64,000 nucleotides of DNA from Phycisphaerae bacterium (GTDB lineage: Bacteria; Planctomycetota; Phycisphaerae; Phycisphaerales; UBA1924): NCBI GenBank assembly GCA_030429705.1, contig JAUIES010000001.1, positions 682,001 to 746,000 on the forward strand. Reading direction: 5' to 3'. Each line of letters begins with the position of its first letter. Position 1 is the stretch's first letter. The notes below the pieces were generated by a model that saw nothing but the letters and a program-made list of their open reading frames with translations, did no database searches and was not told the origin of the DNA. Positions 7,271-29,933 of the stretch are shown piece after piece. Both the position numbers and the translations under genes were made by a program.

Positions 7271-7348
7271 TACCCCCACCTCTTCCCGGTGAAAACTGAG
7301 AAGAGGTTTTGTTCGATTCGTTCATTCTTTTACGATCTGATCATAACC

Positions 7349-7813: not shown

Positions 7814-9717
7814 AACCCGTACATGATTGGCATCACACGCGATTGGGTCGCACCATTCTGTTTCTCGGCGGGATTCGTCTCGCTGTCCCCGTGTTGATTC
7901 TGGTCGCTGCCGCGTTGAGTTGGGGCACATGGCTCGAATCGACGCGTTCGGCACAGGAGGCCGGGCGACTGGTCTATGGCTCAGGGTGGTTCCTCGCGTT
8001 GATGATTCTCGTGTGCTCGAGCCTGACAATTTCAGTGATCACAAGATGGCCTTGGCAGCGCAAACATGTTGGATTCATTGTCGTACACGCGAGTTTGATT
8101 CTGATCATTGTGTCAGGATTCATCTCGTTCTTCACGCGCGTCGAGGGAACGATCACGCTGGCGACGGGCGAACGGGCAGACCACCTGCAGATGCAAACGC
8201 GGCACCTCGAACTTCTCGAACATGATGCCGGACAGTTTGAATCGATCGAATCTGCTGACATAACCGGCTCAGACACGATCCTGATTGGTGGTGCTCAGTT
8301 CACGATTACTGATCGTTGGCCCAACACAACGGAAGAACTCACAGTCAAGAACGATGGTGCGAATCCGCTGCACGCAGTTGAACTCGTCCCTGGGACGGGC
8401 GACCCGGTGTGGATCGGACAAACCAAGCCCGGCGACCCCAGTGAAGACCTCGGCGGCGTCTTCGTTCGCGTGTTGCCTGCTGGCGAATCTTGGCAACCAC
8501 CCGTTCAAGCACGCTCGCTGTTGCTTCGTTCACGAGACGGCGCAACGATCGCGGTGCCGGGCGTTGGTGAGTCGCTTGCAGAGACATCGTGGCGTGTTGA
8601 GTCCATCGAACAGTTTGAACACGCTGTGGTCGACGAGCATGGTCTTTCTGAGCGCGAGGGGGGATCGGCAAACCCGGCTGCCCGAGTCACGCTCGTGCAC
8701 GAAGACGGCTCGCGCGAGATACTCGTTGCTTTTGGGCGATTTCGTGATAGCGTTCACAAGCAACTGACCAACGGCGAAACCCACTCGCCGTATGTCCTTG
8801 CCTATGAGGGCGATGCTGGTGAATGGCCTCTCATTGCATTCGAGCGTGCTGGCAGCACGCCAACGATCACGATTGCCAGTGGTGACGGCGAGACTGAACG
8901 ATTTACGCACGACGGAGACTGGCCTTGGCAGGTCGAATCTGCACTCGTCGGGCCTTTTGAAGTACTGCACGATTATACGAACGCTCGCGGCACGACCGAA
9001 CTCGTTCGTGCCCCAGCGGAAGACAACACGGTGCCCGCGATTGTCGCCGAATATGACACACATGGTCATTCGCACCGCGTCATCTTCCCGTGGGGGCAGC
9101 GCATTCCGGTGCAGGTCGATGATGAAGTCCTGATGATTCGCTATGGACCCAAGGTGCGCGCGCTGCCCTTTGCGATTGAACTCACAGAGTTTCGCAAGTT
9201 GGATTACCCAGGCTCTGACATGGCTATGGCGTATGAGTCTGATGTCATCTTTGAAACACCGGAGATGTCACCCACCGCGATGACGGTGTGGATGAACAAC
9301 CCGCTGAAATACAAGGGCTGGAAGGTCTATCAATCGGGCTTTGTCGGGAACACAATTTCAGTCTTCCAGGTCGCGCGCGACCCGGGTGTCGTCCCGATGT
9401 ACATCGGGTGTATCGGTTTGTGTGTCGGTATCGCGATCACCTTCTACAGCCGCTCGTTGAGTCGTGGACATCCTGGCATTCCAACGCCATTCACGGCACG
9501 CGTTTCTGACAGGGGCCAATATCATGTTGAAGCATCCGATCATCAAAGTGATTCTGTGCATCTTGCTGAGTCCAACGGCTTTGGCAACGGCGCAGTCCGA
9601 ACAGGCGCTGCAGGCTTTGTCGAGTGTTCCGATTCAGGATCAAGGGCGGGTGATGCCGCTCGAAACATTCGCGAATCAGATCGCGACGAGGCTGACAGGC
9701 CGCACGAAGTGGTCTGA
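7810..9717 (+). CDS. resB: ResB-like cytochrome c biogenesis protein
   Basis: System II cytochrome c maturation protein. With CcsA it carries heme across the membrane and ligates it to CXXCH apoproteins. N-terminal helices at ~10-35, ~55-75 and ~85-110 are followed by a large periplasmic domain and a last helix near residue 535-555 (MYIGCIGLCVGIAITFYSRS). The start at 7810 overlaps the preceding stop by ATGA. The C-terminal ~65 residues, after the last helix, overlap the start of ccsA by 194 bases in another frame and have the look of out-of-frame translation. The natural end may be near 9509, with a frameshift in the sequence or gene. The operon's 14 heme sites explain why a maturation pair is encoded here. 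Confidence 0.85.
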   Translation: MKPVHDWHHTRLGRTILFLGGIRLAVPVLILVAAALSWGTWLESTRSAQEAGRLVYGSGWFLALMILVCSSLTISVITRWPWQRKHVGFIVVHASLILIIVSGFISFFTRVEGTITLATGERADHLQMQTRHLELLEHDAGQFESIESADITGSDTILIGGAQFTITDRWPNTTEELTVKNDGANPLHAVELVPGTGDPVWIGQTKPGDPSEDLGGVFVRVLPAGESWQPPVQARSLLLRSRDGATIAVPGVGESLAETSWRVESIEQFEHAVVDEHGLSEREGGSANPAARVTLVHEDGSREILVAFGRFRDSVHKQLTNGETHSPYVLAYEGDAGEWPLIAFERAGSTPTITIASGDGETERFTHDGDWPWQVESALVGPFEVLHDYTNARGTTELVRAPAEDNTVPAIVAEYDTHGHSHRVIFPWGQRIPVQVDDEVLMIRYGPKVRALPFAIELTEFRKLDYPGSDMAMAYESDVIFETPEMSPTAMTVWMNNPLKYKGWKVYQSGFVGNTISVFQVARDPGVVPMYIGCIGLCVGIAITFYSRSLSRGHPGIPTPFTARVSDRGQYHVEASDHQSDSVHLAESNGFGNGAVRTGAAGFVECSDSGSRAGDAARNIRESDRDEADRPHEVV

Positions 9718-16001: not shown

Positions 16002-16865
16002 TCAATCATTGAGCAATGACGGATTGGTGCCGAGGTTACTGAATCGATCGATGATGAGCGCCAGGTATTGATCTGGATCCATCGCCCAATAGGACTCACT
16101 GAAGACTTCGACCTCGAACATGCCATCGAACCCGGCTGCTTCCGTTGAGCGCATGAAGTTGGCGATGTCGATACAGCCGTCGCCCATGAGGCCGCGATCA
16201 TTGAGTGGGTCACTCAGTGTGGTTTTCCAATCACAAATATGAACGCCGAAGATTCGACCTGCTTGCCCTGCCCGCATGATCTGCGTTGCAAGACCCGGTT
16301 CCCACCAAAGGTGATACACATCGAGCGCCACGCCGACCTGTGGGTGTGCGATCTGGGCGCAGATGTCGTTTGCGTTTGCGAGCGTGTTGATGCACGACCG
16401 ATCGGATGCATACATCGGGTGCAGGGGCTCAATCGCTAGTCGCAGGTTGGCCTGTGCAGCATCGTCCGCAATCGCTACGACGGCATCGCACACCATGGAC
16501 CGTGCGTGTTCGAGTGGTACGCCCGGCGATGCACCGACGACGAGTACAATTTGCTCGGCACCGATTGCCTGTGCGTCTCGAATCGCAACGCGAGCATCAT
16601 CAATCGCAGCGGTTCGTTCGTCTGTGTCAGCAGATACGAAGAACCCAGCCCGAACGAGCGCTGGAACAACAAGCCCGGCATCAACGATGATGCGGCGGGC
16701 TTCGTCTGGGGACACGCCGCCTTGAGCAGGATCGATCAGTTCTCGCCATACACTGACCCCCCCGATACCTGCCTGCTGGTACTTTGCGCAGCACGAGCGC
16801 AGGTCCCAATTGCGAGTCGTTCGGGTGTGAATTGCCAACTTGTTCATCGGCCACGCCGCCGTCAT
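16002..16865 (-). CDS. Sugar phosphate isomerase/epimerase-like TIM-barrel protein
   Basis: A 287-residue member of the AP-endonuclease-2-like TIM-barrel family, probably isomerising or epimerising a sugar or inosose with a divalent metal. Family marks include the metal-ligand run 'RLAIEPLHPMYASDRS', 'VGVALDVYHLWWEPG' (Asp and His ligands), 'GVHICDWK' and a final Glu in 'FEVEVFS'. The start at 16865 overlaps the stop of the upstream Gfo/Idh gene by ATGA, so the two are translated as a pair. Substrate is not predictable from sequence; the neighbours suggest sugar or sugar-acid breakdown. Confidence 0.85.
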   Translation of the reverse strand: MTAAWPMNKLAIHTRTTRNWDLRSCCAKYQQAGIGGVSVWRELIDPAQGGVSPDEARRIIVDAGLVVPALVRAGFFVSADTDERTAAIDDARVAIRDAQAIGAEQIVLVVGASPGVPLEHARSMVCDAVVAIADDAAQANLRLAIEPLHPMYASDRSCINTLANANDICAQIAHPQVGVALDVYHLWWEPGLATQIMRAGQAGRIFGVHICDWKTTLSDPLNDRGLMGDGCIDIANFMRSTEAAGFDGMFEVEVFSESYWAMDPDQYLALIIDRFSNLGTNPSLLND

Positions 16866-18040
16866 TGTGGAACCTCGACCCATTCGCATCGGCTCGAGGC
16901 GACCAGCGCCGCTTCTGCCAGTTCGACACCTCGGGCACCTTCGCGCAGTGTCCAGGGGAACGGCTCACCGAGTGCGATGTGGCGAAGGAACAACTCCCAC
17001 TGCACTTTAAATGCGTTGTCGTATGCGATTCCATCTTCGACCTTGTCCCAGTTGGCGAAGAAGTCGATGGGCTGGGTGATATCAGGATTCCAAACGGGAC
17101 GAGGCGTATCAGCGAGCGACTGTGTCCAGCATTCGCGCAGACCCGCCACCGCCGAGCCGTGTGTGCCGTCAATCTGAATCGTGAGCAGATCGTCACGACG
17201 AACGCGCGTACACCAACTGGAGTTGAACTGCGCCATGACTCGATCGCCGAGCAGGAACATGGCATACGCCGAATCGTCGGCATCGGCGTCATAGGGGTTT
17301 CCAGATTCATCAAAGCGCCGTGGAAGATCTGTGTTCACCCACGCAGCCAGTTTGGTGATGGGACCACATGCCGAGCCAAAAGTATGATCGAGCACATATC
17401 GCCAGTGGCAGAACATGTCAGCAGCGATCCCGCCTCCGTCTGCGGCTCGATAGTTCCAACTCGGACGCTGGGCCGGTTGGTCGGGCGATTCACCGGTGAA
17501 CACCCAGTACCCAAACTCACCTCGAATGGACAGAATCCGTCCGAAGAAGTTGGCATCGATCAACGCTTTGAGTTTGCGAATACCGGGGAGCCAGAGTTTA
17601 TCAAAGACCACGCCCGTCTTGATGTTGGCATCGTCTGCGACCCGCACGAGCCGCATCGCTTCCGCGGATGTCGTCGCGGTTGGCTTTTCGCAGTAGATAG
17701 GTTTTCCAATCGATGCAGCCAGTTCGATGGCACGAGCGCGGAATTGTGTTATTGATGCATCAAACAACATGTCGCACGACGGTGAACGGACAGCCTGTTC
17801 CAGGTCTGTTGTAATGGGTAGCGGTGTCCCGCCGAGGGCATCGCCCGCCTGCTTGGCAACAGCCATCAGTTTTTCTTCGTTGCGCCCGGCCAATACTGGC
17901 GCCGGAAGCAGCGTCAGTTCCGGGGATACGCGAACGCCGCCCTGCGCCATGATTGGAACGATGGATCGAAGGAGATGCTGGTTGGCCCCCATGCGCCCGG
18001 TGACGCCGTTCATGACAATGCCGATCGTTCTGGTTTCCAT
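16862..18040 (-). CDS. Gfo/Idh/MocA-family NAD(P)-dependent oxidoreductase
   Basis: A 392-residue cytoplasmic dehydrogenase. The N-terminal Rossmann fold carries a slightly unusual dinucleotide motif (GVTGRMGANQH). 'YCEKPTATTSAEA' around residues 120-135 contains the E-K-P signature with the catalytic Lys. The C-terminal alpha/beta domain binds substrate. The start at 18040 follows GAAGGAG; longer frames are rejected. It forms an operon with the isomerase and diverges from the DapA-family gene across 69 bases, which must hold both promoters. It is likely to oxidise a sugar or keto-sugar in the same pathway. Confidence 0.88.
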   Translation of the reverse strand: METRTIGIVMNGVTGRMGANQHLLRSIVPIMAQGGVRVSPELTLLPAPVLAGRNEEKLMAVAKQAGDALGGTPLPITTDLEQAVRSPSCDMLFDASITQFRARAIELAASIGKPIYCEKPTATTSAEAMRLVRVADDANIKTGVVFDKLWLPGIRKLKALIDANFFGRILSIRGEFGYWVFTGESPDQPAQRPSWNYRAADGGGIAADMFCHWRYVLDHTFGSACGPITKLAAWVNTDLPRRFDESGNPYDADADDSAYAMFLLGDRVMAQFNSSWCTRVRRDDLLTIQIDGTHGSAVAGLRECWTQSLADTPRPVWNPDITQPIDFFANWDKVEDGIAYDNAFKVQWELFLRHIALGEPFPWTLREGARGVELAEAALVASSRCEWVEVPQ

Positions 18041-18109: not shown

Positions 18110-19087
18110 ATGACCGATCCTGACAAACAATCGCCTGACCGACTCGCTGCACGCCTCGCACCCGGGCGGACGATCGATGCGTGCTCGGCTGTGCTCTTGC
18201 CCTTCGATTCGACCGGTGCGATTGACTGGGCATCATTCAACCAACATCTTGCTCGGACAGCAGACGCTGGCATCACACCGGCGATCAATATGGACACCGG
18301 GTTCGGACCACAACTGACACCTGAACAACGGCGTGAAGTGATCAGTCAGACTGCAGATGTCATGAAAGGCAGACGGTTTATCGCGGGGGCTGGCGCATTC
18401 GATAGCAGCACTGATCCATTGCAGCAGTACCGCGTGGCGATTGCTGAGATCAACGACGCCAATGGCGTACCGATCGTGTTTCAATCGGCGTGGCTCTCGG
18501 CACAGACTGGAGCAGATCTCGAGCAATCGTATCGGGACATCACCGCAGGATGCCAAGAGGCGATTGCGTTTGAACTCGGATCCATGTTCGCTCCCTTCGG
18601 GCGCATCTACACACTCGTCGAATACCAACGGCTTCTCGATATTCCTGCTATTGTCGGAGCGAAACACTCATCGCTCAGCCGACTCGCAGAACTGGATCGG
18701 CTCAATCTGCGTGACCAGCATCGGCCACAGTTCAAGGTGTATACGGGCAACGACCTCGCGATCGACATGGTTCTCTATGGCAGCGACTACCTGCTCGGGC
18801 TCTCGACCTTTGACCCCGAAGCATTTGCACTGCGCGACCACTGGTGGGCGACGAAAGACGCGCGGTTCTATGAACTCAATGACGCACTGCAGGCGCTCGG
18901 CGCGGTCGCGTTTCGAGACCCGGTGCCGGCGTACAAGCACTCGGCTGCGGTGTACCTCGCGCTGACAGGGCAGATGCCATCAACCATCGATGTTCATCCC
19001 GCGTGCCCGCGTCGGCCGGCGTGGGAGGGTGAGTTGCTGCGTCCGTTGGCGCACAAAATCGATCAAGCCAAACGGCAGACAGGCTGA
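18110..19087 (+). CDS. Dihydrodipicolinate synthase/NAL-family aldolase or dehydratase
   Basis: A 325-residue class I aldolase-fold protein. The Schiff-base Lys is in 'IPAIVGAKHSSLSRLAEL' (~residue 185). Family members cleave or dehydrate 2-keto-3-deoxy sugar acids, N-acetylneuraminate and similar compounds. The start at 18110 has GGAG six bases upstream; the ATG at 18098 is less likely. It is divergent from the Gfo/Idh-isomerase pair and next to an enolase-superfamily dehydratase. Dehydratase plus keto-acid aldolase is a common pairing in sugar-acid catabolism, so that is the favoured reading. Confidence 0.82.
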   Translation: MTDPDKQSPDRLAARLAPGRTIDACSAVLLPFDSTGAIDWASFNQHLARTADAGITPAINMDTGFGPQLTPEQRREVISQTADVMKGRRFIAGAGAFDSSTDPLQQYRVAIAEINDANGVPIVFQSAWLSAQTGADLEQSYRDITAGCQEAIAFELGSMFAPFGRIYTLVEYQRLLDIPAIVGAKHSSLSRLAELDRLNLRDQHRPQFKVYTGNDLAIDMVLYGSDYLLGLSTFDPEAFALRDHWWATKDARFYELNDALQALGAVAFRDPVPAYKHSAAVYLALTGQMPSTIDVHPACPRRPAWEGELLRPLAHKIDQAKRQTG

Positions 19088-19111: not shown

Positions 19112-20491
19112 CTATCCCGGCTCGGCTTCATCGGTTCCTGCAATCGCTTCACGAACCTGATCTACAAAGCTCGGTCCTTTGGTTTTGACCACGGTTCCCA
19201 GTCCAACCACGAGCACAACCGTCGCGATCATCATGCCGATCACCCAGGCTGCACCGAACGCCCCTTCTGGTCGATGGGCACCCAGATATCGTTTGCTTCG
19301 TTGGAGAATGATGAACCCGACATAGGCGAGGGGTAACAGCAATCCACAGACAATGTTGGTCGGAACAGCGACCCACATGGCGATGTCCTGCCAATAGATC
19401 GCACCCAATACACCGATCGCTGGCAAGAGCGTCCCGACCTTGTGCAAGACCGTACCGCGTTTCCAACCGAACATTGTTTCGCATGCGAAGCCTGAACACA
19501 ACATCTGCATCGTGATCGAACTCATACCCATCGCGATGATGCCGAGGCCGAAGATCCACACGCCCGCGACAGGTCCGAGTCGATCTGGAGCAGCCAACAT
19601 CAGCGCGAGACGATCGGGCGAAATAGTCTTTCCTGTAAAGAGATCTGGCTCACCAAAATGCAGCGTGCTTGCAGACGCGATCAGAATGAGACTCGCTGCG
19701 ATGGCGTACGGCACAAACATGCCAAACACAAGATCGAGGTGCGCCAGTTTGCGGTCAGCGCCTGACCAACTTCGCCTGCGAAGGGAGTATGGGTAGACGA
19801 ACAGCATATTGACCCCGACCGCCGCTGCGAGACCTGACACGATGACAACGGTCGCACTGATCGTTCCCCCCTCTGGTGTCACGACATCATCCGGGATCGA
19901 CGGAATGAGACCAGCAAACAGCTTGGCGGGCTCGGGAATCCCCGTTTTTACAACAACCCAGAGGAAGCACAGAACAATCAACCAGACCACAGTCTTCAGT
20001 GCATTCTCGTATACCCGAACAAGTTTTGGAGACCGATCGTACATGAGCCCGACTGTCACACAGATCGCGAGCGCAATCGCGCCCATCAGTTTGCGAGATG
20101 CGTCCTCCCAACCGAGATTCTCAGCAAGCAGAACCATCATCGAAGCGGCGAGTGCGTATTGGGCAAACTGCCAGATGATTGAAGACAGAATCGCGGCGAT
20201 ACCCCAGCCATAGGCGAAGAACGAACCGGCATAGCGTTTCATGGCTTCAAACGGGTCAAGGTCATTGCTGAGCGTCTGGTGCGCTACAGCCGAGAGAACG
20301 ATAATGCCGAGAATCATGCTGACCGGAGCGACCCAGATCAGTTGATACCCGAATGCTGCCCCCCCAAAAATGGCTGCGAACGCCGTACCGCCCCCGAGCG
20401 TCATGGCGCTCTGCATGTATCCTGGGCCCATCTGCCGGAAGTAGCCGAACACGCCGAGTTTGTTTGCCCCTGCATCTTCGTGTTCAGTCAT
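19112..20491 (-). CDS. Nramp-fold transporter lacking the metal-binding motif
   Basis: A 459-residue membrane protein with about 11 helices and an Nramp/LeuT-like layout. The first helix (MGPGYMQSAMTLGGGTAF) aligns without gaps to the MntH first helix as I recall it, but the metal-coordinating DPGN is replaced by GGGT. The sixth-helix MPH-type motif is also absent (GVNMLFVYPYSL). It therefore probably does not move Mn2+ or Fe2+ by the usual mechanism. Its start overlaps the stop of the enolase-superfamily gene by ATGA, so uptake of that enzyme's organic substrate is an attractive inference. A divergent cation transporter remains possible. Confidence 0.8.
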   Translation of the reverse strand: MTEHEDAGANKLGVFGYFRQMGPGYMQSAMTLGGGTAFAAIFGGAAFGYQLIWVAPVSMILGIIVLSAVAHQTLSNDLDPFEAMKRYAGSFFAYGWGIAAILSSIIWQFAQYALAASMMVLLAENLGWEDASRKLMGAIALAICVTVGLMYDRSPKLVRVYENALKTVVWLIVLCFLWVVVKTGIPEPAKLFAGLIPSIPDDVVTPEGGTISATVVIVSGLAAAVGVNMLFVYPYSLRRRSWSGADRKLAHLDLVFGMFVPYAIAASLILIASASTLHFGEPDLFTGKTISPDRLALMLAAPDRLGPVAGVWIFGLGIIAMGMSSITMQMLCSGFACETMFGWKRGTVLHKVGTLLPAIGVLGAIYWQDIAMWVAVPTNIVCGLLLPLAYVGFIILQRSKRYLGAHRPEGAFGAAWVIGMMIATVVLVVGLGTVVKTKGPSFVDQVREAIAGTDEAEPG

Positions 20492-21954
20492 GCGTGATCT
20501 CCTGCGTCTGCGATGGCGGCTAGAAGGGCGTCGGGTGACCAAGTTGCTCGAGGTACCCACTCCGAAAGGTTCGGGATTCCAGCATACCCATAACCGGCGG
20601 CTTGGTGCAGCGATCCAATCGAAATGTGCCCTGCGTTGATCGACAGTTGCCCGCCGAGCGGGCTCGGGGCTGCCTGATAGAGATCGCTGTGTTCGCGGAG
20701 GAGCGCGTCGCGATCGTCTTCGTGAAGATGTGTCAGCCCGGCAAAGTAGTGATGTCCGTTGCGCTCAATATGGCTCAGCCCGAGCATCGAACTCGTCACC
20801 AGATCCTGATGAAGCGCAAAAATCGGGATATTGGTCAGGTCCTCCGCCGATTGAAACAAGCGGCCGTCTGAATCATGGCAACGCATGGCACTGGCGATCG
20901 CACGGAACACGCCTTTGCAGTTCTTGACGCTGACACCTCGGTAACCAATGCCCACTGCTTGCGTGAACATGTCGCGGTCCATATCCGCTTCATCGATGAT
21001 GACCGGCCGACTGAGCGAATCTAATCCCCTCACCGCGTCTGCATGCAGCGTCCGCCCGCGCGCGATCGGTTGTTCGATATAGGCAATTCGATCGAACAGC
21101 CACGCTCCTTGTTCTGAATCACTCAGTTTGGCGAGGAGTTCATCGAGTTGCGTCATCGAATCAAACTGCTCATTGCCATCGAGCGTGCACAAGACTTCGC
21201 CATCACACATCGACGAGAGCGTGCTGGCAATTCGGCTCAGTCGTTCCAGGTCCTGGGTGATCTGTCCGCTCACTTTTAACTTGAAATGCGATAGGCCGTA
21301 GGTTTGAATCGCGCCTTCGAGCGTTGTCGGCAACCCATCATCTGGCGCATCGCCGGAGCGTTGTTCCTGCTCGATAGCATCGACCAACCCCACCGTGTGC
21401 CGCACCTGCATCGTTTCGATCGGTTGACTTCGAACGGCCGACGACAGACTTGTCTTGAGGCCTAACCGGGCTCCATCAAATCCGGTGAACCCGTCACGAA
21501 GGACTGTGTGCAGCGGCTGACGAGTCATGCGACAGAGCGCATCGAGCATGGCTCGCTCGACGATCGACACACTCTGGCTGAGCAGCAGCCGTGTCGTCCG
21601 CTCGCCCTGGTGGTTGATCACGAGGTCAGTGTCCAGAGCGTCCCAATGCTGAAATGCGGTCATCAGTTTCTTCGAGGCAATCACGCGATCACATGCGTGG
21701 CCGATGCCGGTCAGCAATCGTTGCCAGTCAGTTTGAATGTTCTGATCGGAGACTTTTTCGAACCACTTGGGAACGAGCAGATCGGATGCGTATCCGGCCA
21801 CACGCTCGCCCGTCGCTGTTTCGATCTCGACGCGCAACACACAGAGGGGCGCGCCGCGCATGGTGACCACACCGAATCGAAACGGCAATCTGGTCATGCA
21901 ATCGCGCAGCCTCGCTTCGGCTTTGACAACTCGAAAGAGCACACCGTCCGACAT
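20488..21954 (-). CDS. Enolase-superfamily (mandelate racemase/muconate lactonizing-like) enzyme
   Basis: A 488-residue enzyme. The KxK motif of the barrel is in 'SHFKLKVSG' (~residue 250), with metal-ligand acids in 'CTLDGNEQ', 'IEQPI' and 'IIDEAD', in the order usual for MLE/MR-type members. These enzymes abstract an alpha proton from a carboxylate to dehydrate, racemise or cycloisomerise it. It is about 100 residues longer than typical members, mostly in the N-terminal capping region and at the C-terminus. AGGAGGA precedes the start at 21954. Translational coupling to the Nramp-like transporter suggests an acid-sugar or related carboxylate substrate. The exact reaction is unknown. Confidence 0.82.
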   Translation of the reverse strand: MSDGVLFRVVKAEARLRDCMTRLPFRFGVVTMRGAPLCVLRVEIETATGERVAGYASDLLVPKWFEKVSDQNIQTDWQRLLTGIGHACDRVIASKKLMTAFQHWDALDTDLVINHQGERTTRLLLSQSVSIVERAMLDALCRMTRQPLHTVLRDGFTGFDGARLGLKTSLSSAVRSQPIETMQVRHTVGLVDAIEQEQRSGDAPDDGLPTTLEGAIQTYGLSHFKLKVSGQITQDLERLSRIASTLSSMCDGEVLCTLDGNEQFDSMTQLDELLAKLSDSEQGAWLFDRIAYIEQPIARGRTLHADAVRGLDSLSRPVIIDEADMDRDMFTQAVGIGYRGVSVKNCKGVFRAIASAMRCHDSDGRLFQSAEDLTNIPIFALHQDLVTSSMLGLSHIERNGHHYFAGLTHLHEDDRDALLREHSDLYQAAPSPLGGQLSINAGHISIGSLHQAAGYGYAGIPNLSEWVPRATWSPDALLAAIADAGDHA

Positions 21955-22124
21955 CTCATCCTCCTCCTTCAATTCCGAGCGCTTCGCTTGTGGCACCATA
22001 CCTAATTGATGACGACCGTGAATCAGACTGCTCAACCTGTTTGACCCGGCGGCAGGCTTTCAACACAGGGAACGATTCGTTATACTCGATCCTGCTCGGG
22101 TTGTACTCGGCGGAAGGAATATGC

Positions 22125-23273
22125 ATGGCCGATCTAAGCGTTCAGGTTGACGGACTCAGGCTGCCCAATCCGTTCGTGATCGGCTCCGGACCTCCGGGCA
22201 CCAACGCGAATGTCATCGGCAAGGCGTTCGACGAAGGCTGGGGAGCGGTCATCTGCAAAACCGTGAGCCTGGACGCCTCAAAGGTTGTCAATGTTGCTCC
22301 GCGGTACGCACGCATGCGAGCCAACCAGACCAAAGAAGTCATCGGCTGGCAGAACATCGAGCTCATTTCGGATCGCGCATTTGATGTGTGGGAGGATGAG
22401 TTCAAACAGATCAAAGACAAATACCCGGACCGTGTCCTGATCGCCTCGATCATGGAAGAGTACAACAAGGACGCATGGGTCGAGATCGTCGAGCGCTGCC
22501 AGGCGTGCGGCGTTGATGGGTTTGAACTCAACTTTTCCTGTCCGCATGGCATGCCTGAACGCAAAATGGGCGCTGCGATGGGACAGGATGTCGAATTGCT
22601 CGAAGAGGTATGTCAGTGGGTCAGCGGTGCCGCAACCATCCCGGTCTGGGCAAAGATGACACCCAACATCACCCACATCGTCGACCCTGCCCGCGCTGCT
22701 TTACAGGGGGGGTGTCAAGGGATCGCAGCGATCAACACGATCCTCAGTGTCATGGGCATCGATCTGGAGACATTGCGACCTGAACCGACGGTTGAAGGAT
22801 ACTCGGTGCCCGGTGGGTATTCGTGCAAAGCCGTCCGACCGATAGCGCTGCGGATGGTCATGGAACTGGCAACGATGATGTATGGTTCCGATGCGGAGCC
22901 TGGTGAATTTCCAGATCGTTCACTCTCAGCCATTGGTGGCGTTGAATCCGGTGAACACGCTGCGCAGTTCATTTTGCTGGGCGCCTCCACGGTCCAGGTC
23001 TGCACCGGCGTGATGATCCATGGGTACAAGATGATCAGCCGCATGTGTGACGAGTTGAGTGCGTTCATGGACAAGCACGAGTTTACAACCATCGAAGACT
23101 TCCGCGGGCATTCGTTGCAATACTTCACGACGCACGCCGACCTCGTCAATCGACAGCTGGAAGCAAAGGCCGCTCAAAAGGCCGCCCGCGATGGCATGGT
23201 TACCAAAGACACCGCTTGGGAAGGTGACAAATTCGTTGAACAGTCCAACAAACTCGTTTCGAACGACGACTGA
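22125..23273 (+). CDS. preA: Dihydropyrimidine dehydrogenase, PreA-like flavoprotein
   Basis: Reduces uracil or thymine to the 5,6-dihydro base, the first step of reductive pyrimidine breakdown. The 382-residue FMN TIM barrel resembles dihydroorotate dehydrogenase: 'LPNPFVIGSGPPG' at the start, 'ELNFSCPHGMPERKMG' in the substrate loop region and 'IGGVESGEHAAQFILLGAS' at the phosphate-binding end. E. coli PreA ends in a two-cluster ferredoxin domain. Here the last 40 residues are charged and contain no CxxCxxC. No PreT gene lies nearby, so the electron donor is open. GGAAGGAA precedes the start. It is transcribed away from the rest of the pathway, which follows on the opposite strand. Confidence 0.87.
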   Translation: MADLSVQVDGLRLPNPFVIGSGPPGTNANVIGKAFDEGWGAVICKTVSLDASKVVNVAPRYARMRANQTKEVIGWQNIELISDRAFDVWEDEFKQIKDKYPDRVLIASIMEEYNKDAWVEIVERCQACGVDGFELNFSCPHGMPERKMGAAMGQDVELLEEVCQWVSGAATIPVWAKMTPNITHIVDPARAALQGGCQGIAAINTILSVMGIDLETLRPEPTVEGYSVPGGYSCKAVRPIALRMVMELATMMYGSDAEPGEFPDRSLSAIGGVESGEHAAQFILLGASTVQVCTGVMIHGYKMISRMCDELSAFMDKHEFTTIEDFRGHSLQYFTTHADLVNRQLEAKAAQKAARDGMVTKDTAWEGDKFVEQSNKLVSNDD

Positions 23274-23294
23274 GCGTTGTGACAACCGCGTTCT

Positions 23295-24689
23295 CTAAAA
23301 ATGTGTGGGCTTGCGTTTGAGCAACTGCCCTCGTCCAATAGTCCCGACAAACGCGCCGTCGCGTGCTTGCACTTGTCCGCGCACCGTGACAATCTCGGAT
23401 CGACCGGTCACCTCCCAGCCTTCGTAGCCGTTGTAATCTACTTTTGAGTGGCTGGTGGCGACACCGAGTGTGTGCGATCGATTCGGGTCATAAACGACGA
23501 GGTCGGCATCGGCACCAACACTGATCGAGCCCTTCCTCGGGTACAACCCAAACAACTGGGCGGGCTTGGTGCTACAGGCATTGACCATCGTGTGCAGATC
23601 AATCTTTCCCGACAGCACGCCAAAGGTGTGTACTAGATCGATGCGCTCCTGAATGGAGGGGATACCGTTCGGGATTTTTGTGAATGCATCACGCCCCATG
23701 TCTTTTTGACCTGCGAAGTCGAACGGTGCGTGGTCGGTCCCGATGGTTGAGACAAGCCCCGCACGCAGGCCGTTCCAGAGTGCGTCCTGATTGCTCTTCT
23801 CGCGCAGCGGCGGCGACATGACATACTTGGCACCCTCGAACCCGTCGCGTTCCGGATAGGTCTTGTCGAGGACGAGATGCGGCGCAACCGCTTCGACCCA
23901 GACATGCACACCGCGAAGTTGTGCTTCAATCGCTGCTCGCAGCGCGGCTTCGCATGAGGTGTGGACAACATAGATGTGTGCGCCGGTGAGTTCGGCGAAT
24001 GTCGCGAGATGTTGCACCCCGCTCGCTTCGACCGTCGTCGGTCGCGACGGTTCGTGCCACTCCGGCCCGGTTTTGCCCGCGTCGAGCAAGAGGTTCTGCA
24101 TGGCATCGATTGCATCCGCGTTCTCGCAGTGTGCGGTGACGATGACACCCTCCGCCTTGGCAAGTTGCAAGAGTCGAAACAGATCTGTGTCACTGAGATC
24201 AAGCGCACCCTTGTAGGCAAGAAACACTTTGAACGATGCAACCCCTTTTTCGCGGACCAACTGCACCAGTTGCTGCTGGGCGAGTTCGTCAAACCGAACC
24301 ACCGCCAGATGAAACGCGTAGTCGACAGCCGCCAGTGGGACTGCCTTGTTGTTCCATTCTTCAAACGCTGCTCTTGGCTCATCGTCAGGGCCGGGGCAGA
24401 TCATTTCGATCAGTGTGGTTGTGCCCCCCGCCAGTGCGGCTTTGGATGCCGACTCGTAGTCGTCTTTCGCGTTCGTCCCCATGAATGGCAGATGAATGTG
24501 CACATGCGGATCAATGAACCCGGGGAACAGGTACTTCCCGGTCGCATCGATCACCTCAGTCTCATCGGCGATTGACCCCGGGTCGATCTCTGGTTCGATG
24601 CGTGTGATCTGCTCGTTTTCGCAGTACACATCGGCGACATAATCGTCCGATGCTGTGATGATTCGGCCGCCCTTGAAAAGCAACGCCAT
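23295..24689 (-). CDS. hydA: Dihydropyrimidinase
   Basis: Opens dihydrouracil or dihydrothymine to the N-carbamoyl beta-amino acid. A 464-residue amidohydrolase, full length for the family. Metal ligands are visible: H62 and H64 in 'DPHVHIHLP', a carboxylated Lys near 160 in 'FKVFLAYKG', H187 in 'TAHCEN', H243 in 'VVHTSCEAA' and Asp in 'GTDHAPFDF'. It is the last gene of a minus-strand operon, 13 bases after the aminotransferase gene, and converges on preA. Hydantoinase activity on other cyclic amides is possible, but the neighbours fix the pathway. Confidence 0.93.
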   Translation of the reverse strand: MALLFKGGRIITASDDYVADVYCENEQITRIEPEIDPGSIADETEVIDATGKYLFPGFIDPHVHIHLPFMGTNAKDDYESASKAALAGGTTTLIEMICPGPDDEPRAAFEEWNNKAVPLAAVDYAFHLAVVRFDELAQQQLVQLVREKGVASFKVFLAYKGALDLSDTDLFRLLQLAKAEGVIVTAHCENADAIDAMQNLLLDAGKTGPEWHEPSRPTTVEASGVQHLATFAELTGAHIYVVHTSCEAALRAAIEAQLRGVHVWVEAVAPHLVLDKTYPERDGFEGAKYVMSPPLREKSNQDALWNGLRAGLVSTIGTDHAPFDFAGQKDMGRDAFTKIPNGIPSIQERIDLVHTFGVLSGKIDLHTMVNACSTKPAQLFGLYPRKGSISVGADADLVVYDPNRSHTLGVATSHSKVDYNGYEGWEVTGRSEIVTVRGQVQARDGAFVGTIGRGQLLKRKPTHF

Positions 24690-24702
24690 TGTTCTGCTCC
24701 TG

Positions 24703-26073
24703 CTATTGTGTCGAGGCTTCGGTCAGCGCGATGTCCAAGACGCGAATCAGAAACTCGACATCCTCACGCGAAATGCACATGGGCGGCTTGATACGCAGCA
24801 CATTGCCATGGATCCCGCCCTTACCGATTAACAGACCGAGTTCTTTGGCGCGTTCAAAGACATCCGCACACATTTTCTTAGCCGGTTCCTTCGTCGTTCG
24901 ATTGGTGACGAGTTCTACTCCCAACATGAGCCCCATCCCTCGCACATCACCGATCGCCTCGTGCTGAGTCTTCAGTTCGATCAGACCTTGCTTGAGATAG
25001 CCGCCGATTTCGAGTGCACGCTTTTGTATGTTTTCATTCAGAATCACATCGAGTGTCGCTTCGCACTGGGCCATCGTCACGGGGTTACCGCCGAAGGTAT
25101 TGAAATGGAGTCGTTGCGACAAAGCCTGTGCAATTTCAGGCCGAGTGACCACAGCACCACAGGGTGCGCCATTCCCCATGCCTTTGGCCATCGTCACCAT
25201 GTCAGGAACAACGCCATGGTTCTCGAACCCCCAGAAGTGATTCCCCGTCCGACCAAAACCGGTTTGCACCTCATCGGATATGCACAGCCCCCCCGCTGCC
25301 CGCACGGACGCATAGACACGCGACAGGTAACCGGGCGGCAACTCAACCGTACCACCCACTCCTTGAATCGGCTCGGCAATGAATGCGGCGATTGCGCCCG
25401 GTGTCGAGTATCGAATCACCTCGTCCACATCTTCAGCATACTTTTCGCCGGCATCCGGGTCGTCATGCCCGAACGGCCCACGATACAAATCTGGACACTT
25501 GGCGTGATGAATGCCAAACCCGTGTGGAACTGGCATCTTCCATGTGTTCTGCGCCGTGAGCCCCATGGCGGTCGGCGACATGCCGTGGTACGCGTTGCGA
25601 AGCGCAATGACATCGAAGTTGCCAGTGTGCGCTCGAGCCATGAGCAACGCGAGGTCGTTTGACTCTGAGCCCGAGTTTGTAAAGTAGCAAACCGACAGGC
25701 CCGACCCCTTGGGAAAGGTGCTCGCGAGTTTCTTGGCATAGGTTGCAATGTTTGGATGCAGATAGATCGTGGTGGTGTGTTGGAACCGTTCGTTCTGCTC
25801 TCGCACAGCGTCGATCACCTTGGGATGGCAGTGCCCGACCGAAACCGTCACGATGCCGGCGAACCCGTCAAGATAGCGTTTGCCCGTTTCATCGAACAGA
25901 TACTGCATCGATCCTTCGACGATCATGACCGGATCACGATAATACAAGAGAATCGCAGGAGACAAGAACTCCTGACGCATCGCGAGCACTTCGTTTCTCG
26001 ATGGCCCTTTGTAGGGCGCGGGCGTGTGTGCACATGCAGGAAGGGTCGGCAGTGTTGATTGTTCTGTCTTCAT
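24703..26073 (-). CDS. Class III PLP aminotransferase (AGXT2-like, beta-alanine/beta-aminoisobutyrate)
   Basis: A 456-residue transaminase. The PLP Lys is in 'DMVTMAKGMGNGAP', the Asp that contacts the pyridine nitrogen is in 'LCISDEVQTGFGRTG', and the phosphate-binding region is 'TNSGSESNDLALLMARA'. Overall resemblance is to AGXT2-type enzymes, which move the amino group of beta-alanine or 3-aminoisobutyrate to pyruvate or glyoxylate. That is the next step after beta-ureidopropionase here. The start at 26073 overlaps the permease stop by ATGA. The products would be malonate or methylmalonate semialdehyde. Confidence 0.88.
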   Translation of the reverse strand: MKTEQSTLPTLPACAHTPAPYKGPSRNEVLAMRQEFLSPAILLYYRDPVMIVEGSMQYLFDETGKRYLDGFAGIVTVSVGHCHPKVIDAVREQNERFQHTTTIYLHPNIATYAKKLASTFPKGSGLSVCYFTNSGSESNDLALLMARAHTGNFDVIALRNAYHGMSPTAMGLTAQNTWKMPVPHGFGIHHAKCPDLYRGPFGHDDPDAGEKYAEDVDEVIRYSTPGAIAAFIAEPIQGVGGTVELPPGYLSRVYASVRAAGGLCISDEVQTGFGRTGNHFWGFENHGVVPDMVTMAKGMGNGAPCGAVVTRPEIAQALSQRLHFNTFGGNPVTMAQCEATLDVILNENIQKRALEIGGYLKQGLIELKTQHEAIGDVRGMGLMLGVELVTNRTTKEPAKKMCADVFERAKELGLLIGKGGIHGNVLRIKPPMCISREDVEFLIRVLDIALTEASTQ

Positions 26074-27560
26074 GCTGGGTCCGTTTCTTGCTCGTTTAAT
26101 GTTTGACGCGGCGGCCACACGGTCATGAACACCCAATACAAACTCGCTGCGACAGCAACGCCCACGAACCAGGCGTAGCCGTAGATTGAGTCAAACCAGG
26201 GGTTGAAGAGTTGTCGCTGTGACGCAGCATTCAAGAACCCGGGCAGGTTGGGCAAGACTGCGAGTCCGAGCGCGACCATGGCTCGCCAGTTCACGCCGGC
26301 GAACGAGCCGTGGCGTTCGTACATCGCGCCGACATCGATCCGCGTTTTGCGAATGATGAAATAGTCACAGAGCAATATGCCGACGATCGGACCGAGGAGC
26401 GCGCTGTACCCAATCAACCAGGTGAAGATGTAAGCGCCCATATCGTTGACCAGTCGCCATGGCATCATGATCACGCCGAGCCCGCAGGTGATCAATCCGC
26501 CTGTACGAAAACTGATTCGGCGCGGCGAGACATTTGAAAAACCGTTGGCCGGGCTGACCACATTGGCCGCAAGATTGGTCGAGAGCGTCGCGATCAAGAG
26601 CGCCACCATCGACACGACAACTACGACAGGAGAACCCATGCGCTCGACGAGTTCGACAGGATTCCAGATCGCTTCTCCAAAGAGCACCACCGTCGCTCCG
26701 GTCACGATGATGCCGATGAAACAGAACAAAGTCATCGTTGGCGGCAGCCCGATGACCTGACCGACCACCTGACTCTTCTGCGACTTTGCGTACCGCGTGA
26801 AATCAGGGATGTTCAGGCTCAATGTCGCCCAGAATCCGACCATCGCGGTGAGTTGCGGAATGAAGATCTTCCAGAACCCTGAGCCTTCCGGATAGTTTGT
26901 TGCCGAAGTGAACAATGCACCGGGATTGTCAACGCTGATCATGGCCCAGATCAACAACGCGACGCCGGACGCAATCAGGAACGGCGCAGCGTATACCTCA
27001 AGCACCTTGATAGACTCGACACCGCGCACGACGATGCCAACATGGAGCGCCCAGAACGCAAGGAAGCAGAGAAACTGAATGATGGTAATCCCGAGGATGG
27101 GCACCGGGTTGGTATCGAGCAATGGATCAAAGAGACCGAGCACGCCCAAGATCGAATACAGCGCCGCCCCCCCGATCCAACATTGGATACCGAACCAGCC
27201 GCATGCCACGAGTGATCGAGCGATCGATGGAACATGAGCGCCATGCACGCCGAAACTCGCACGGGCCAGGACAGGAAACGGCACGCCCAGTTTCGTCCCC
27301 GCGTGGCCGTTGAGCACCATCGGGATGAGGACAATGCAGTTACCGATCATGACGGTCAGTGTCGCCTGCCACCAGTTCATACCCTGTTCGACCATGCCCG
27401 CTGCGAGCATATAGGTCGGGATACAGACCGCCATACCAATCCAGAGCGCAGCGATATTCCAGGCGGACCAGGTTCGTGCCGATGCAGCGACCGGGGCAAG
27501 GTCTTCATTGGACAGCGTGTGTTGCGCGTCGACAGGTGTATCAGAAGTCGAAGAGGTCAT
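26070..27560 (-). CDS. NCS1-family nucleobase permease
   Basis: A 496-residue inner-membrane transporter with about 12 helices. The first helix region (WSAWNIAALWIGMAVCIPTY) is the typical NCS1 signature; members move cytosine, uracil, allantoin, hydantoins and similar compounds with H+ or Na+. Its position inside the pyrimidine degradation operon points to uracil, thymine or dihydropyrimidine uptake. It overlaps the aminotransferase start by ATGA and the end of the ureidopropionase gene by 20 bases. The chosen ATG at 27560 gives a short cytoplasmic N-terminus. Confidence 0.9.
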   Translation of the reverse strand: MTSSTSDTPVDAQHTLSNEDLAPVAASARTWSAWNIAALWIGMAVCIPTYMLAAGMVEQGMNWWQATLTVMIGNCIVLIPMVLNGHAGTKLGVPFPVLARASFGVHGAHVPSIARSLVACGWFGIQCWIGGAALYSILGVLGLFDPLLDTNPVPILGITIIQFLCFLAFWALHVGIVVRGVESIKVLEVYAAPFLIASGVALLIWAMISVDNPGALFTSATNYPEGSGFWKIFIPQLTAMVGFWATLSLNIPDFTRYAKSQKSQVVGQVIGLPPTMTLFCFIGIIVTGATVVLFGEAIWNPVELVERMGSPVVVVVSMVALLIATLSTNLAANVVSPANGFSNVSPRRISFRTGGLITCGLGVIMMPWRLVNDMGAYIFTWLIGYSALLGPIVGILLCDYFIIRKTRIDVGAMYERHGSFAGVNWRAMVALGLAVLPNLPGFLNAASQRQLFNPWFDSIYGYAWFVGVAVAASLYWVFMTVWPPRQTLNEQETDPA

Positions 27561-28410
27561 CGTAACTCTCAGGCCTCCGATCGCGGTAGAACTGCCACAC
27601 ATCGCGGACCTCGCGAATTAAATCAAGATCCAGATCGGCAATGACGACTTCGTCGTCTGTGCGTGAGGCTTCAGCAACGATCTGCCCGCGCGGGTTACAG
27701 AAATACGATTGGCCATAGAACTCACCGATGTTCCACGGCGCTTCGGTCCCCACCCGGTTGATCGCACCGACAAAATACTGATTGGCGACCGCGTGTGCAG
27801 GCTGTTCAAGCTTCCACAGGTACTCGCTCAGACCGGCAACGGTGGCAGACGGATTGAACACAATCTCAGCGCCGTTGAGACCGAGAGCGCGAGCCCCCTC
27901 CGGGAAGTGCCGGTCGTAACAGATATAGACACCGATCTTGCCATATCTCGTTTCGAAGACCGGGTAACCCCCATTGCCGGGTTTAAAGTAAAACTTCTCC
28001 CAGAAGCCGGGGTGGCAGTGCGGAATGTGGTGTTTCCGGTATTTGCCGAGGTACTGCCCTTGTTCATCGATCACCGCAGCCGTGTTGTAATACACGCCCG
28101 TCATGTCAACTTCATAGATCGGCACAACCATGACCATCTTGTGTTGCGCAGCGAGATCCTGCATCAGGCGGATGGTCGGTCCATCAGGAATGGGCTCTGC
28201 CAGGTTGTACCATCGCGTGTCTTGCTCGGCGCAGAAGTAAGGGCCATAGAAAATTTCCTGCAGACAACATACATTGGCGCCTTCACTGGCTGCCTGCTTG
28301 ATGAGCGCCACATGTTTGTCGATCATGGCTGATTTGATGGCATCAAGATCGTCTGAGTTCGGTAGTGCGTTGGAAGCCTGAATGAGTGCGGCTCGAGTAA
28401 TTCTTGGCAT
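27541..28410 (-). CDS. Beta-ureidopropionase (nitrilase superfamily)
   Basis: Hydrolyses N-carbamoyl-beta-alanine or N-carbamoyl-beta-aminoisobutyrate to the beta-amino acid, CO2 and ammonia. The 289-residue protein has the Glu-Lys-Cys triad of the superfamily: E52 in 'CLQEIFYGPYFC', K126 in 'LGKYRKHHIPH' and C164 in 'VYICYDRHFPE'. The motif surroundings resemble N-carbamoyl-beta-alanine and N-carbamoylputrescine amidases. The operon context decides for beta-ureidopropionase. The chosen start leaves a 26-base gap after the upstream dehydrogenase gene. Confidence 0.9.
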   Translation of the reverse strand: MPRITRAALIQASNALPNSDDLDAIKSAMIDKHVALIKQAASEGANVCCLQEIFYGPYFCAEQDTRWYNLAEPIPDGPTIRLMQDLAAQHKMVMVVPIYEVDMTGVYYNTAAVIDEQGQYLGKYRKHHIPHCHPGFWEKFYFKPGNGGYPVFETRYGKIGVYICYDRHFPEGARALGLNGAEIVFNPSATVAGLSEYLWKLEQPAHAVANQYFVGAINRVGTEAPWNIGEFYGQSYFCNPRGQIVAEASRTDDEVVIADLDLDLIREVRDVWQFYRDRRPESYDDLFDF

Positions 28411-28436
28411 GGCGTACTTTCAAAGAATTGAAGTGT

Positions 28437-29933
28437 TCAAATCCATCGACGGACCGTAACGCGTGACTTGGTGAAGAACCGGACCCCGTCTTCGCCGTTG
28501 GTGTGAAGGTCGCCGAAGAACGACTTTTTCCAACCGGCGAACGGAAAGGCAGCCATCGGCGCGGGGACACCGACATTGATCCCGATCATGCCGGCCTGAA
28601 CGGTCGATTCAAACCTGTGAGCAGCGTGACCGGAATCAGTGAACAGGACGGACATATTGCCGTATTCGGAACCGTTGACAAACGACACCGCTTCATCGAG
28701 TGAGGCCGCTCGCATGATTGAAAGCACCGGACCGAAGATTTCTTCATCGACGATCGACATGCCGGGCGCGGTCTTGTCGAAAATGGTCGGACCAACGAAA
28801 CAACCGCCATCGGGCATCGCGTGAGTTCGCCCGTCAACCAGCAAATCAGCCCCGCTCGCAACACCAGATTCGATGTAGTTGAGGACGCGTTCCTGAGCAG
28901 GCTTGTCTTGCAGGGGTCCCATCTGCGTTGCCGATTCACACCCGGGCCCAACCTTCATGGATGTAGCGCGCTCAACAAGACCGGGCACAAGCCAGTCGGC
29001 CGAATCCCCCACCGCCACAACCACAGAACCGGCAAGACATCGCTGACCGGTATTTCCGAACGCTGACCCAAAAACACCATCGATCGCGGCTTCTCGATTG
29101 GCATCGGGCATGATGATCGAGTAGTTCTTCGCGCCGCACATGCACTGGACGCGTTTGTCGTGCGCACAGCCTGTTGTGTAAATTGCCTTTCCGGCGGCTG
29201 TCGATCCAACGAACGAAACCGCGCGGACCTCGTCGTGCTTGAGCAGATGATTCACGACCGCCGGGCCGCCATGGACCAGGTTGAGGACACCGTCGGGAAA
29301 CCCCGCTTTATACGCCAGTTCCATCGCGCGCACTGCCGATGCAGGGTCGCGCTCGGAAGGCTTGAGGACGAATGTGTTGCCGCAGGCGACCGCCATTGGC
29401 CACATCCAAAGCGGAACCATGAGTGGGAAATTGAAAGGTGTGATACCCACACACACCCCGAGAGGCAATCGATCAACCGAAGAATCGATGCCAACACCAC
29501 CCTCGTCGGTCGTACGACAAAAAGATGACGACACTGCGATCTGCGGCAATGTTCGGCCCATCATGAGAATCGGAGCGCCACAAGCGTGCTCGATGCAGTC
29601 GATCCCGCGGCGGACGGAACCGATCGCCTCTCCTGTCGTCTTGCCGTGCTCTTGAACAATGATCTCGGCGAGTTCATCGATGTGTGACTCGAGAATGGAC
29701 TTGTACTTGAACAGATGTTGAATGCGATCGCCCACTGGAGTTCGTGACCAGGCAGGAAACGCATCAGCGGCAGCCTTGACAGCCCGTTCTGCCGCATCGA
29801 CATCATCGATCGGTACCTCGAGCAGTACATCACCCGTTGCGGGGTTCGTGTTCGTACGGACCGCGCACGGCGGACTCTGATGTTTCTGTCGGCCGATAAG
29901 ATGTGGGACGGATGGAGGACGAACTGTACTCAT
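28437..29933 (-). CDS. mmsA: CoA-acylating (methyl)malonate-semialdehyde dehydrogenase
   Basis: Turns malonate semialdehyde into acetyl-CoA, or methylmalonate semialdehyde into propionyl-CoA, with NAD+ and release of CO2. The 498-residue aldehyde dehydrogenase has the catalytic Cys in 'FGNTGQRCLAGSVVVAVG', 'LPLGVCVGITPFNFPLMVPL' in the cofactor region, and 'FVGSTAAGKAIY'. It lacks the usual general-base Glu at the ELGGK-type position (CMCGAKNYSIIM instead), a trait of the CoA-dependent MMSDH group. It is the first gene of the pyrimidine operon and the last step of the pathway. Confidence 0.92.
   Translation of the reverse strand: MSTVRPPSVPHLIGRQKHQSPPCAVRTNTNPATGDVLLEVPIDDVDAAERAVKAAADAFPAWSRTPVGDRIQHLFKYKSILESHIDELAEIIVQEHGKTTGEAIGSVRRGIDCIEHACGAPILMMGRTLPQIAVSSSFCRTTDEGGVGIDSSVDRLPLGVCVGITPFNFPLMVPLWMWPMAVACGNTFVLKPSERDPASAVRAMELAYKAGFPDGVLNLVHGGPAVVNHLLKHDEVRAVSFVGSTAAGKAIYTTGCAHDKRVQCMCGAKNYSIIMPDANREAAIDGVFGSAFGNTGQRCLAGSVVVAVGDSADWLVPGLVERATSMKVGPGCESATQMGPLQDKPAQERVLNYIESGVASGADLLVDGRTHAMPDGGCFVGPTIFDKTAPGMSIVDEEIFGPVLSIMRAASLDEAVSFVNGSEYGNMSVLFTDSGHAAHRFESTVQAGMIGINVGVPAPMAAFPFAGWKKSFFGDLHTNGEDGVRFFTKSRVTVRRWI

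Follow-up and report, generated by a model that had tools for sequence, protein, structure and literature searches.

Genes at the locus

In the window, which is the whole stretch of 64,000 nucleotides analysed here, a gene for an Nramp-related carrier lies between a gene of the enolase superfamily and a convergent gene for a DUF993 protein, which is followed by genes for a Gfo/Idh-type dehydrogenase and a TIM-barrel isomerase (Table 1). The carrier frame runs on the minus strand from an ATG at 20491 to 19112, and the plus-strand frame over the same positions is broken by stops. As the reading frame is real and the carrier is conserved across many genomes, an annotation artefact could be ruled out. 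The stop of the enolase-superfamily gene overlaps the start of the carrier gene by ATGA at 20488-20491, just as an earlier note on this DNA had described.

Table 1. Positions of genes and carrier motifs at the locus, counted from the first letter of the window
Feature	Position	Strand	Basis
Xylose-isomerase-like TIM barrel (AP_endonuc_2)	16002..16889	-	PF01261 130.2 bits; also in L032, L033, L034
Gfo/Idh/MocA-type oxidoreductase	16862..18040	-	PF22725 67.4 bits; also in L032 and L034 cassettes
DUF993/DHDPS-like aldolase-family gene, convergent with carrier	18110..19087 (ORF opens 17975)	+	PF06187 30.9 bits, PF00701 23.1 bits
Nramp-related carrier P0001, GGGT clade, 459 aa	19112..20491	-	PF01566 97.6 bits; model versus DraNramp
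Codons 226-228, GVN, unwound middle of TM6, replaces MPH	19808..19816	-	alignment; model helix break 225-226
Codons 108-111 of TM3, Q111 replaces TM3 Glu (Dra E134)	20159..20170	-	alignment
Codons 33-36, GGGT, unwound middle of TM1, replaces DPGN	20384..20395	-	ungapped HMM alignment; model helix break 32-33
Enolase-superfamily gene, muconate-lactonizing-like, KxK	20488..21954	-	overlap, residues, model

The enolase gene of the window shares the KxK, the pattern of metal ligands and the fold with the muconate-lactonizing-like subgroup of the superfamily. Unlike recognised members it has no Pfam match and no NCBIfam match over the cut-off; MR_MLE_C was detected in both relatives that were scanned, narrowly above its cut-off in one and below it in the other. 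In 21 sequences the residues K226xK228, D260, E295, and D322/E323 are invariant and K345 is kept at 90% or more (residue 1 being the codon preceding the ATG). The structural model has a pLDDT of 88.7, and the 50 listed Foldseek matches are all enolase-superfamily entries, with E values down to 4e-15. The fold of the model together with the KxK, Asp-Glu-Asp/Glu, and Lys residues thus bears out the superfamily that the earlier note had given to this partner. Nothing relevant came up when the PDB was searched with the sequence of an enolase relative. Enzymes of the enolase superfamily remove a proton adjacent to a carboxylate and require a divalent metal (Mg2+).

An alignment of 37 DUF993 sequences keeps a lysine and a TGDD motif, which reads TGND in the window copy. 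Both resemble features of DHDPS-type aldolases, and by analogy the lysine is presumably the Schiff-base residue. A structure of an uncharacterised DUF993 relative exists (4dnh), and in the literature searched there was no mention of DUF993. For the TIM-barrel gene of the window the nearest models were 5-keto-L-gluconate epimerase, 3-dehydroshikimate dehydratase, and 2-oxo-tetronate isomerase, all of them well under the cut-off.

Family and fold of the carrier

The Nramp model PF01566 matches residues 40-407 of the carrier in Pfam with 97.6 bits (E 9.9e-28) at a cut-off of 29.8, and the genome of the carrier, which is 96% complete, holds no second match to PF01566 at E 0.001. The more specific MntH/Nramp models of NCBIfam stay under their cut-offs (46.4 versus 430, 39.4 versus 50, and 28.3 versus 272.5 bits). 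An AlphaFold2 model calculated from a 28-row alignment has a pLDDT of 83.1. Its closest fold matches are Nramp-family chains (Foldseek, VIA-align), with a Z score of 40.4 and an rmsd of 2.6 over 387 residues for DraNramp (6d91) and Z scores of 37.9 for both EleNRMT and the YcsG model 9a52_A, while other LeuT-fold carriers, which transport amino acids, choline, auxin, or chloride, match at 27.1 and below. The structural model which the earlier note had proposed thus matches the fold of DraNramp, and its unwound GGGT and GVN segments lie where the helices are interrupted (residues 32-33 and 225-226). We count the predicted Nramp-type LeuT fold among the things shown by computation.

The carrier is an Nramp-related, that is a noncanonical, PF01566 protein: it scores above the family cut-off, it is devoid of DPGN and MPH, and it falls outside the canonical clade. 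With the canonical Nramp/MntH proteins (SLC11; DraNramp, BfraNramp) it shares PF01566, a LeuT-type fold along almost its entire length, and an ungapped first helix. Unlike these it has no DPGN (DxxN), no MPH, and no A/CxxM, which is AxxG instead, its TM3 glutamate is replaced by glutamine, and it belongs to a separate clade. NRMTs, exemplified by EleNRMT, are likewise noncanonical PF01566 proteins with a similar fold, but their signature is given as DxxG-TxxA/T (PMC8806188) as compared to GxxT-AxxG in the carrier, and the two occupy separate clades.

Residues at the metal-binding positions

When the carrier is aligned by profile to DraNramp and BfraNramp, no gap interrupts the first helix, and D56-P57-G58-N59 of DraNramp correspond to G33-G34-G35-T36 of the carrier. 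M230, P231, and H232 correspond to G226, V227, and N228, and the TM3 acids D131 and E134 to Q108 and Q111, so that the acidic residues of the TM3 proton pathway are absent (the DraNramp numbers are in part those of published papers). The gap-free first helix, the change of DPGN to GGGT, and the missing MPH of the sixth helix had all been stated in the earlier note and could be confirmed.

The same picture emerged from 59 sequences of the short type, a set which contains the query and three near-identical pairs (L026/L025, L038/L003, and L058/L008) and in which some rows, for example L029 and L031, have long reading frames. Their TM1 motif is GGGT in 37, GGGS in 16, GAGS in four, and GAGT and AGGT in one each, the AGGT row being L034 with its disrupted start. 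At the MPH position 33 have GAN, 14 GVN, ten GIN, and two VVN, which makes G[AVI]N in 57 of 59; neither DPGN nor MPH occurs in any of the 59. The 20 longer GGG relatives have GGGS (17), GGGT (two), or GAGS (one) in TM1 and GIN throughout. All 15 canonical sequences show DPGN and MPH, the group having been defined by its DPGN motif. The known metal ligands are absent throughout the GGG[T/S] clade.

When the near-identical copies were removed, 56 short-type sequences remained. All of these and all 20 long sequences have glutamine 111. Position 108 holds glutamine or histidine in most of the short set, and the Met230 position is glycine in all long sequences and in 96% of the short ones. Among the acids only E162 and D253 reach a conservation of at least 95% in the 56 sequences, and canonical and NRMT-like groups keep both. 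Acids at positions 6, 202, and 406 are kept at 80-82%, and positions 6 and 202 lie outside the model helices. The earlier note had named compensating metal ligands nearby as a finding that would speak against its reading; acidic ones were not found among the conserved positions of the 56 sequences, and we reject them as candidates as E162 and D253 are also kept in other Nramp groups. Methionine 229 in TM6, which is located beside asparagine 228, is invariant (88% in the NRMT-like group), and methionine 321 in TM8 is present in 100% of the short set and 90% of the long set, so that soft ligands near the site remain conceivable. Two further positions speak against dismissing metals outright: position 246 is histidine in 91% of the short set, with aspartate in the query, and of the basic pair of canonical TM9 the second residue is lysine or arginine in 95% of the short set, the first being histidine in the aligned query. 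As a partner for an anionic substrate, no conserved basic residue was found mid-helix in TM1, 3, 6, or 8 of the short-set alignment.

In the L034 locus the enolase gene (L034:4339-5794) and the isomerase gene (7076-7859) each read in two pieces and the carrier has no start of its first helix, which makes assembly frameshifts likely.

Phylogeny and distribution

A phylogeny against canonical and NRMT clades, as proposed in the earlier note, was calculated with FastTree from 152 PF01566 proteins, nearly all from one phylum, and rooted at the midpoint. Groups such as canonical or DAGG were defined by their TM1 motif, and the tree tests whether each is a clade; L149, L150, L160, L175, L107 (a second MntH copy), and L059 were left out and near-identical pairs kept in. 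The GGG types (78 tips, support 0.853), the canonical proteins (15 tips, 1.0), and the NRMT-like DAGG proteins (eight tips, 1.0) form separate clades, with the GPG types sitting around the canonical and DAGG clades. By tree position and by residue comparison an identity as canonical Nramp or as NRMT is rejected.

Due to its midpoint rooting this tree cannot tell which state is ancestral. A rooted published tree shows the Nramp-related proteins as paraphyletic and basal to the canonical Nramps (PMC12873925), which makes a loss of ligands less likely. Of the earlier claim that both metal sites are lost, the absence of the known ligands thus stands, while the direction implied by "lost" finds no support in a separate clade and a basal position in the published tree. 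"Lost" is probably wrong, and it is more likely that the metal ligands were never acquired. Lack of DPGN and MPH is itself a known hallmark of Nramp-related proteins (PMC12873925), and the same outgroup appears in PMC9606685 and PMC4072509. Like the carrier, the "G-motif" groups of Ray et al. 2026 (PMC12873925) are described as basal and devoid of both motifs, and the Nramp-related groups other than MntG and NRMT are referred to there as entirely uncharacterised.

Among 392 genomes of the phylum of the window 84 match the carrier, weak matches to other Nramp types counted in, and the named relatives are labelled Planctomycetota. A scan of further genome contigs gave 29 loci, of which 24 have planctomycete labels, two are labelled Deltaproteobacteria, and three "bacterium" only; at least two of the 29 share contigs with loci of the 392-genome search. 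The distribution is patchy, as none of the nine other listed genomes of the window's family matches the carrier. A plasmid search with the carrier retrieved one weak match, a Bacteroidota Nramp bearing DPGN and MPH.

Conserved gene cassettes

Neighbouring genes were compared in 48 loci, consisting of the window and 47 of the 49 loci L032-L080. L061 and L066 were dropped, their contigs being shared with L038 and L058, and L061-L080 represent 20 of 29 other genomes with a locus, hand-picked for spread. With neighbours defined by a distance within 6 kb, 90 bits, and an E value of 1e-20, an enolase-superfamily gene was found in 31 of the 48 loci, an OYE-type flavoprotein (PF00724 in both copies scanned) in 34, DUF993 in 37, and any of the three in 40. 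The better of the two OYE queries matches genes which are 52-100% identical in other loci. Some of the missing partners are explained by contig ends, while L062 and L065 have no partners despite full flanks. Three deep relatives (L078-L080), which are 33-36% identical, have none of the cassette genes.

The composition of the cassette varies. The window, L032, and L034 combine enolase, DUF993, Gfo/Idh, and isomerase genes without OYE, and L033 has DUF993 and isomerase only. In the own genome of the carrier no OYE match was obtained in a search run without a positive control. As OYE and the pair of Gfo/Idh and isomerase interchange among cassettes, these may not all encode a single pathway. A second cassette, consisting of a nucleotidyltransferase and/or a GHMP kinase plus Gfo/Idh, is carried by five of the 48 loci (L068, L069, L070, L073, and L076). 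Nucleotidyltransferase (four of five) and GHMP kinase (four of five) are located on one side of the carrier and Gfo/Idh (five of five) on the other, and in L069 nucleotidyltransferase and GHMP kinase are one fused protein. By eye the kinase resembles a glucuronokinase, but library matches do not bear this out, the best in NCBIfam being to heptose, mevalonate, and galactose kinases, each of them below the cut-off. Judged by tree topology, these five carriers make up a single clade inside that of the enolase cassette, a pattern to be expected of one carrier shared by two related pathways. The nucleotidyltransferase/GHMP kinase gene is divergent from the GGG carrier.

None of these partners, neither enolase, OYE, DUF993, GHMP kinase, nucleotidyltransferase, Gfo/Idh, nor isomerase, was detected at E 1e-6 in 18 control loci of other Nramp types (three canonical, three GPGT, four GPGS, two DAGG, three GAGD, two GxGE, and one GVSH). 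In the reverse direction, all 19 enolase matches of at least 550 bits in the 392 genomes, the window's own included, share a contig with a relative of P0001 at a distance of 39-3264 bases. This threshold was chosen after seeing a gap between 553 and 523 bits, and the systematic look at neighbours covered the matches above it; as some of the genomes also contributed to the 48 loci, the two counts are not independent. The carriers next to the 19 strong matches are 17 of the short type and two of the long type (G030 and G186, the latter typed without its TM1 motif).

Of the 20 long-type GGG loci, three (L082, L084, and L093) have enolase, OYE, or DUF993 neighbours, the enolase relative in L084 being under 550 bits; 17 have none, some of them lying at contig ends. 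In L083, L090, L096, L098, and L100 the other neighbours look unrelated, and many appear to be housekeeping genes (three proteins were scanned, the rest judged by eye). The cassette is therefore mainly a property of short-type carriers, in which it is conserved. The linkage spans carriers 42-72% identical to the query and persists with altered gene order and strand in L045 and L056.

Two loci contain an additional, distant Nramp-type gene with 26-28% identity directly after an enolase gene (L041:1-1751 and L043:27-1822), and the main block of OYE, carrier, and DUF993 lies about 4.7 kb further on. Enolase-superfamily genes also adjoin GPGS-type Nramp genes, which belong to a different Nramp-related lineage, in L181:832-3485 and L182:812-3688; these loci lie outside the 18 controls and were picked because an enolase match was close.

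What is new here are the conserved enzyme cassettes around GGG[T/S] carriers, Nramp-related proteins without DPGN and MPH being already known. No description of the cassettes was found in the literature searched by the topics Nramp motifs, phylogeny, NRMT, YcsG/PxpT, and enolase rather than by the name of the clade.

Candidate substrates

On balance we lean towards a LeuT-fold, Nramp-related secondary carrier for the uptake of a small organic molecule which the neighbouring enzymes then consume; hydroxy- and sugar acids are the most likely candidates for this substrate. The molecule would enter through the carrier, import being the presumed direction, and would be processed by the enolase-superfamily enzyme and the aldolase-like DUF993 protein, with an OYE-type flavoprotein, or in the window the Gfo/Idh dehydrogenase and the TIM-barrel isomerase, as a possible third component. 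A carboxylate on the substrate is to be expected because enolase-superfamily chemistry acts beside a carboxylate. In carriers of the APC type, GxG motifs bind the carboxylate of amino acid substrates by backbone amides at the same glycine-rich break, and by analogy the unwound GGG[T/S] segment of TM1 might hold a carboxylate in this way. Glutamine 27, threonine 31, glutamine 111, asparagine 228, and tyrosine 233, picked by helix position, are candidate residues of the pocket. The set of enzymes may resemble that of the hydroxyproline-betaine pathway, which employs an enolase, an OYE-type demethylase, and a DHDPS-type deaminase. An organic-acid carrier had also been suggested in the earlier note; the gene context, with its cassettes and none in 18 controls, strongly supports this, while the substrate itself is one that we infer.

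The nearest experimental precedent for organic-acid carriage by the carrier is PxpT of C. glutamicum, an NRAMP-family protein which according to genetic evidence published in May 2026 is needed for growth on 5-oxoproline (PMC13274462). B. subtilis YcsG (MntG) is given as 50% identical to PxpT in the same paper, and it has two conflicting published assignments, 5-oxoproline use (PMC13274462) and manganese import, as it is reported to raise cellular manganese (PMC10448178). Like PxpT and YcsG the carrier is encoded beside enzymes of a presumed organic-acid metabolism, and the YcsG model is among its best fold matches; the likeness is one of fold and description. PxpT and YcsG sit in 5-oxoprolinase operons, and the carrier has other enzyme partners. 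PxpA (PF03746) gave no match in the 96% complete genome of the carrier, compared to matches in five of 14 control genomes, and 5-oxoproline use via PxpA is rejected for this genome.

As YcsG is reported to import manganese, a metal may be the cargo even where an organic-acid enzyme is encoded in the operon. A very divergent cation carrier, the other suggestion of the earlier note, is nonetheless less likely, and we consider it improbable that the carrier is a divergent one for divalent cations which provides Mg2+ or Mn2+ for the enolase encoded in the operon, a metal-dependent enzyme. Such a supply is conceivable because enolase-superfamily enzymes need a divalent metal, Mg2+; methionines 229 and 321 are conserved in the carrier, and the other characterised PF01566 proteins met in this analysis move metals, among them YcsG as a reported Mn importer (PMC10448178) and EleNRMT, which is described to bind Mg2+ with an altered site (PMC8806188). 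Against it, neither an acid nor a histidine replaces the ligands in the carrier, where GGG[T/S], a glycine at Met230, and a glutamine at the TM3 glutamate are found, whereas NRMTs retain the TM1 aspartate in their DxxG (PMC8806188). Metal supply also leaves the OYE, DUF993, and sugar-kinase partners unexplained.

Somewhat less improbable, yet still unlikely in our view, is a neutral or zwitterionic substrate such as a polyol, a sugar, an amino acid, or a betaine, which becomes an acid only inside the cell. Gfo/Idh dehydrogenases, TIM-barrel isomerases, and GHMP kinases, which occur in the cassettes, act on sugars and polyols in known pathways, the enolase could work on a later intermediate, and the site has no conserved mid-helix basic residue nearby. 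However, carrier and enolase genes stand close together, the start of the carrier gene being overlapped in the window and no more than 3.3 kb separating the two in 19 of 19 strong cases, which suggests an early step of the pathway. An acid is also what PxpT is linked to, the closest relative for which an organic substrate has been proposed. It appears very improbable that the neighbours have no functional tie to the carrier and came to be linked with it by chance, through common descent or horizontal transfer. Cassettes may have moved as blocks, given the patchy occurrence of the carrier gene (none of nine listed family genomes), and such neighbours are missing beside 17 of the 20 long-type relatives; but the linkage persists over 42-72% identity and through changes of order and strand, and two different cassettes, both of small-molecule enzymes, are involved.

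With a clade devoid of known metal ligands and two cassettes of small-molecule enzymes, the GGG[T/S] carriers offer a clean test case for the noncanonical Nramp fold, in which metal and organic cargo of Nramp-related groups could be told apart. Should an organic acid be moved, the annotation as divalent-metal transporter would be wrong for this clade, and the best-studied family of metal importers may originate in carbon uptake. It is possible, though we would sooner doubt it, that the Nramp fold began as an organic-acid carrier and still is one in many bacteria, with the GGG[T/S] clade holding a carboxylate at the TM1 break, the short GGG[T/S] proteins acting as sugar-acid importers of Planctomycetota, and the metal specificity of DPGN and MPH arising later in one branch.

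Further genes in the phylum and the window

The phylum also holds PF01566 types with GAGD, GxGE, GVSH, GTGS, GTGD, and GASD in TM1 (L139-L178), most of which keep glycine at places 1 and 3. In the window, the enolase gene is adjoined at 22122-29933 by a cluster which, judged by eye, is like a reductive pyrimidine pathway and comprises genes for a dihydropyrimidine dehydrogenase-like protein, a dihydropyrimidinase, an aminotransferase, an NCS1-type permease, a ureidopropionase-like protein, and a semialdehyde dehydrogenase.
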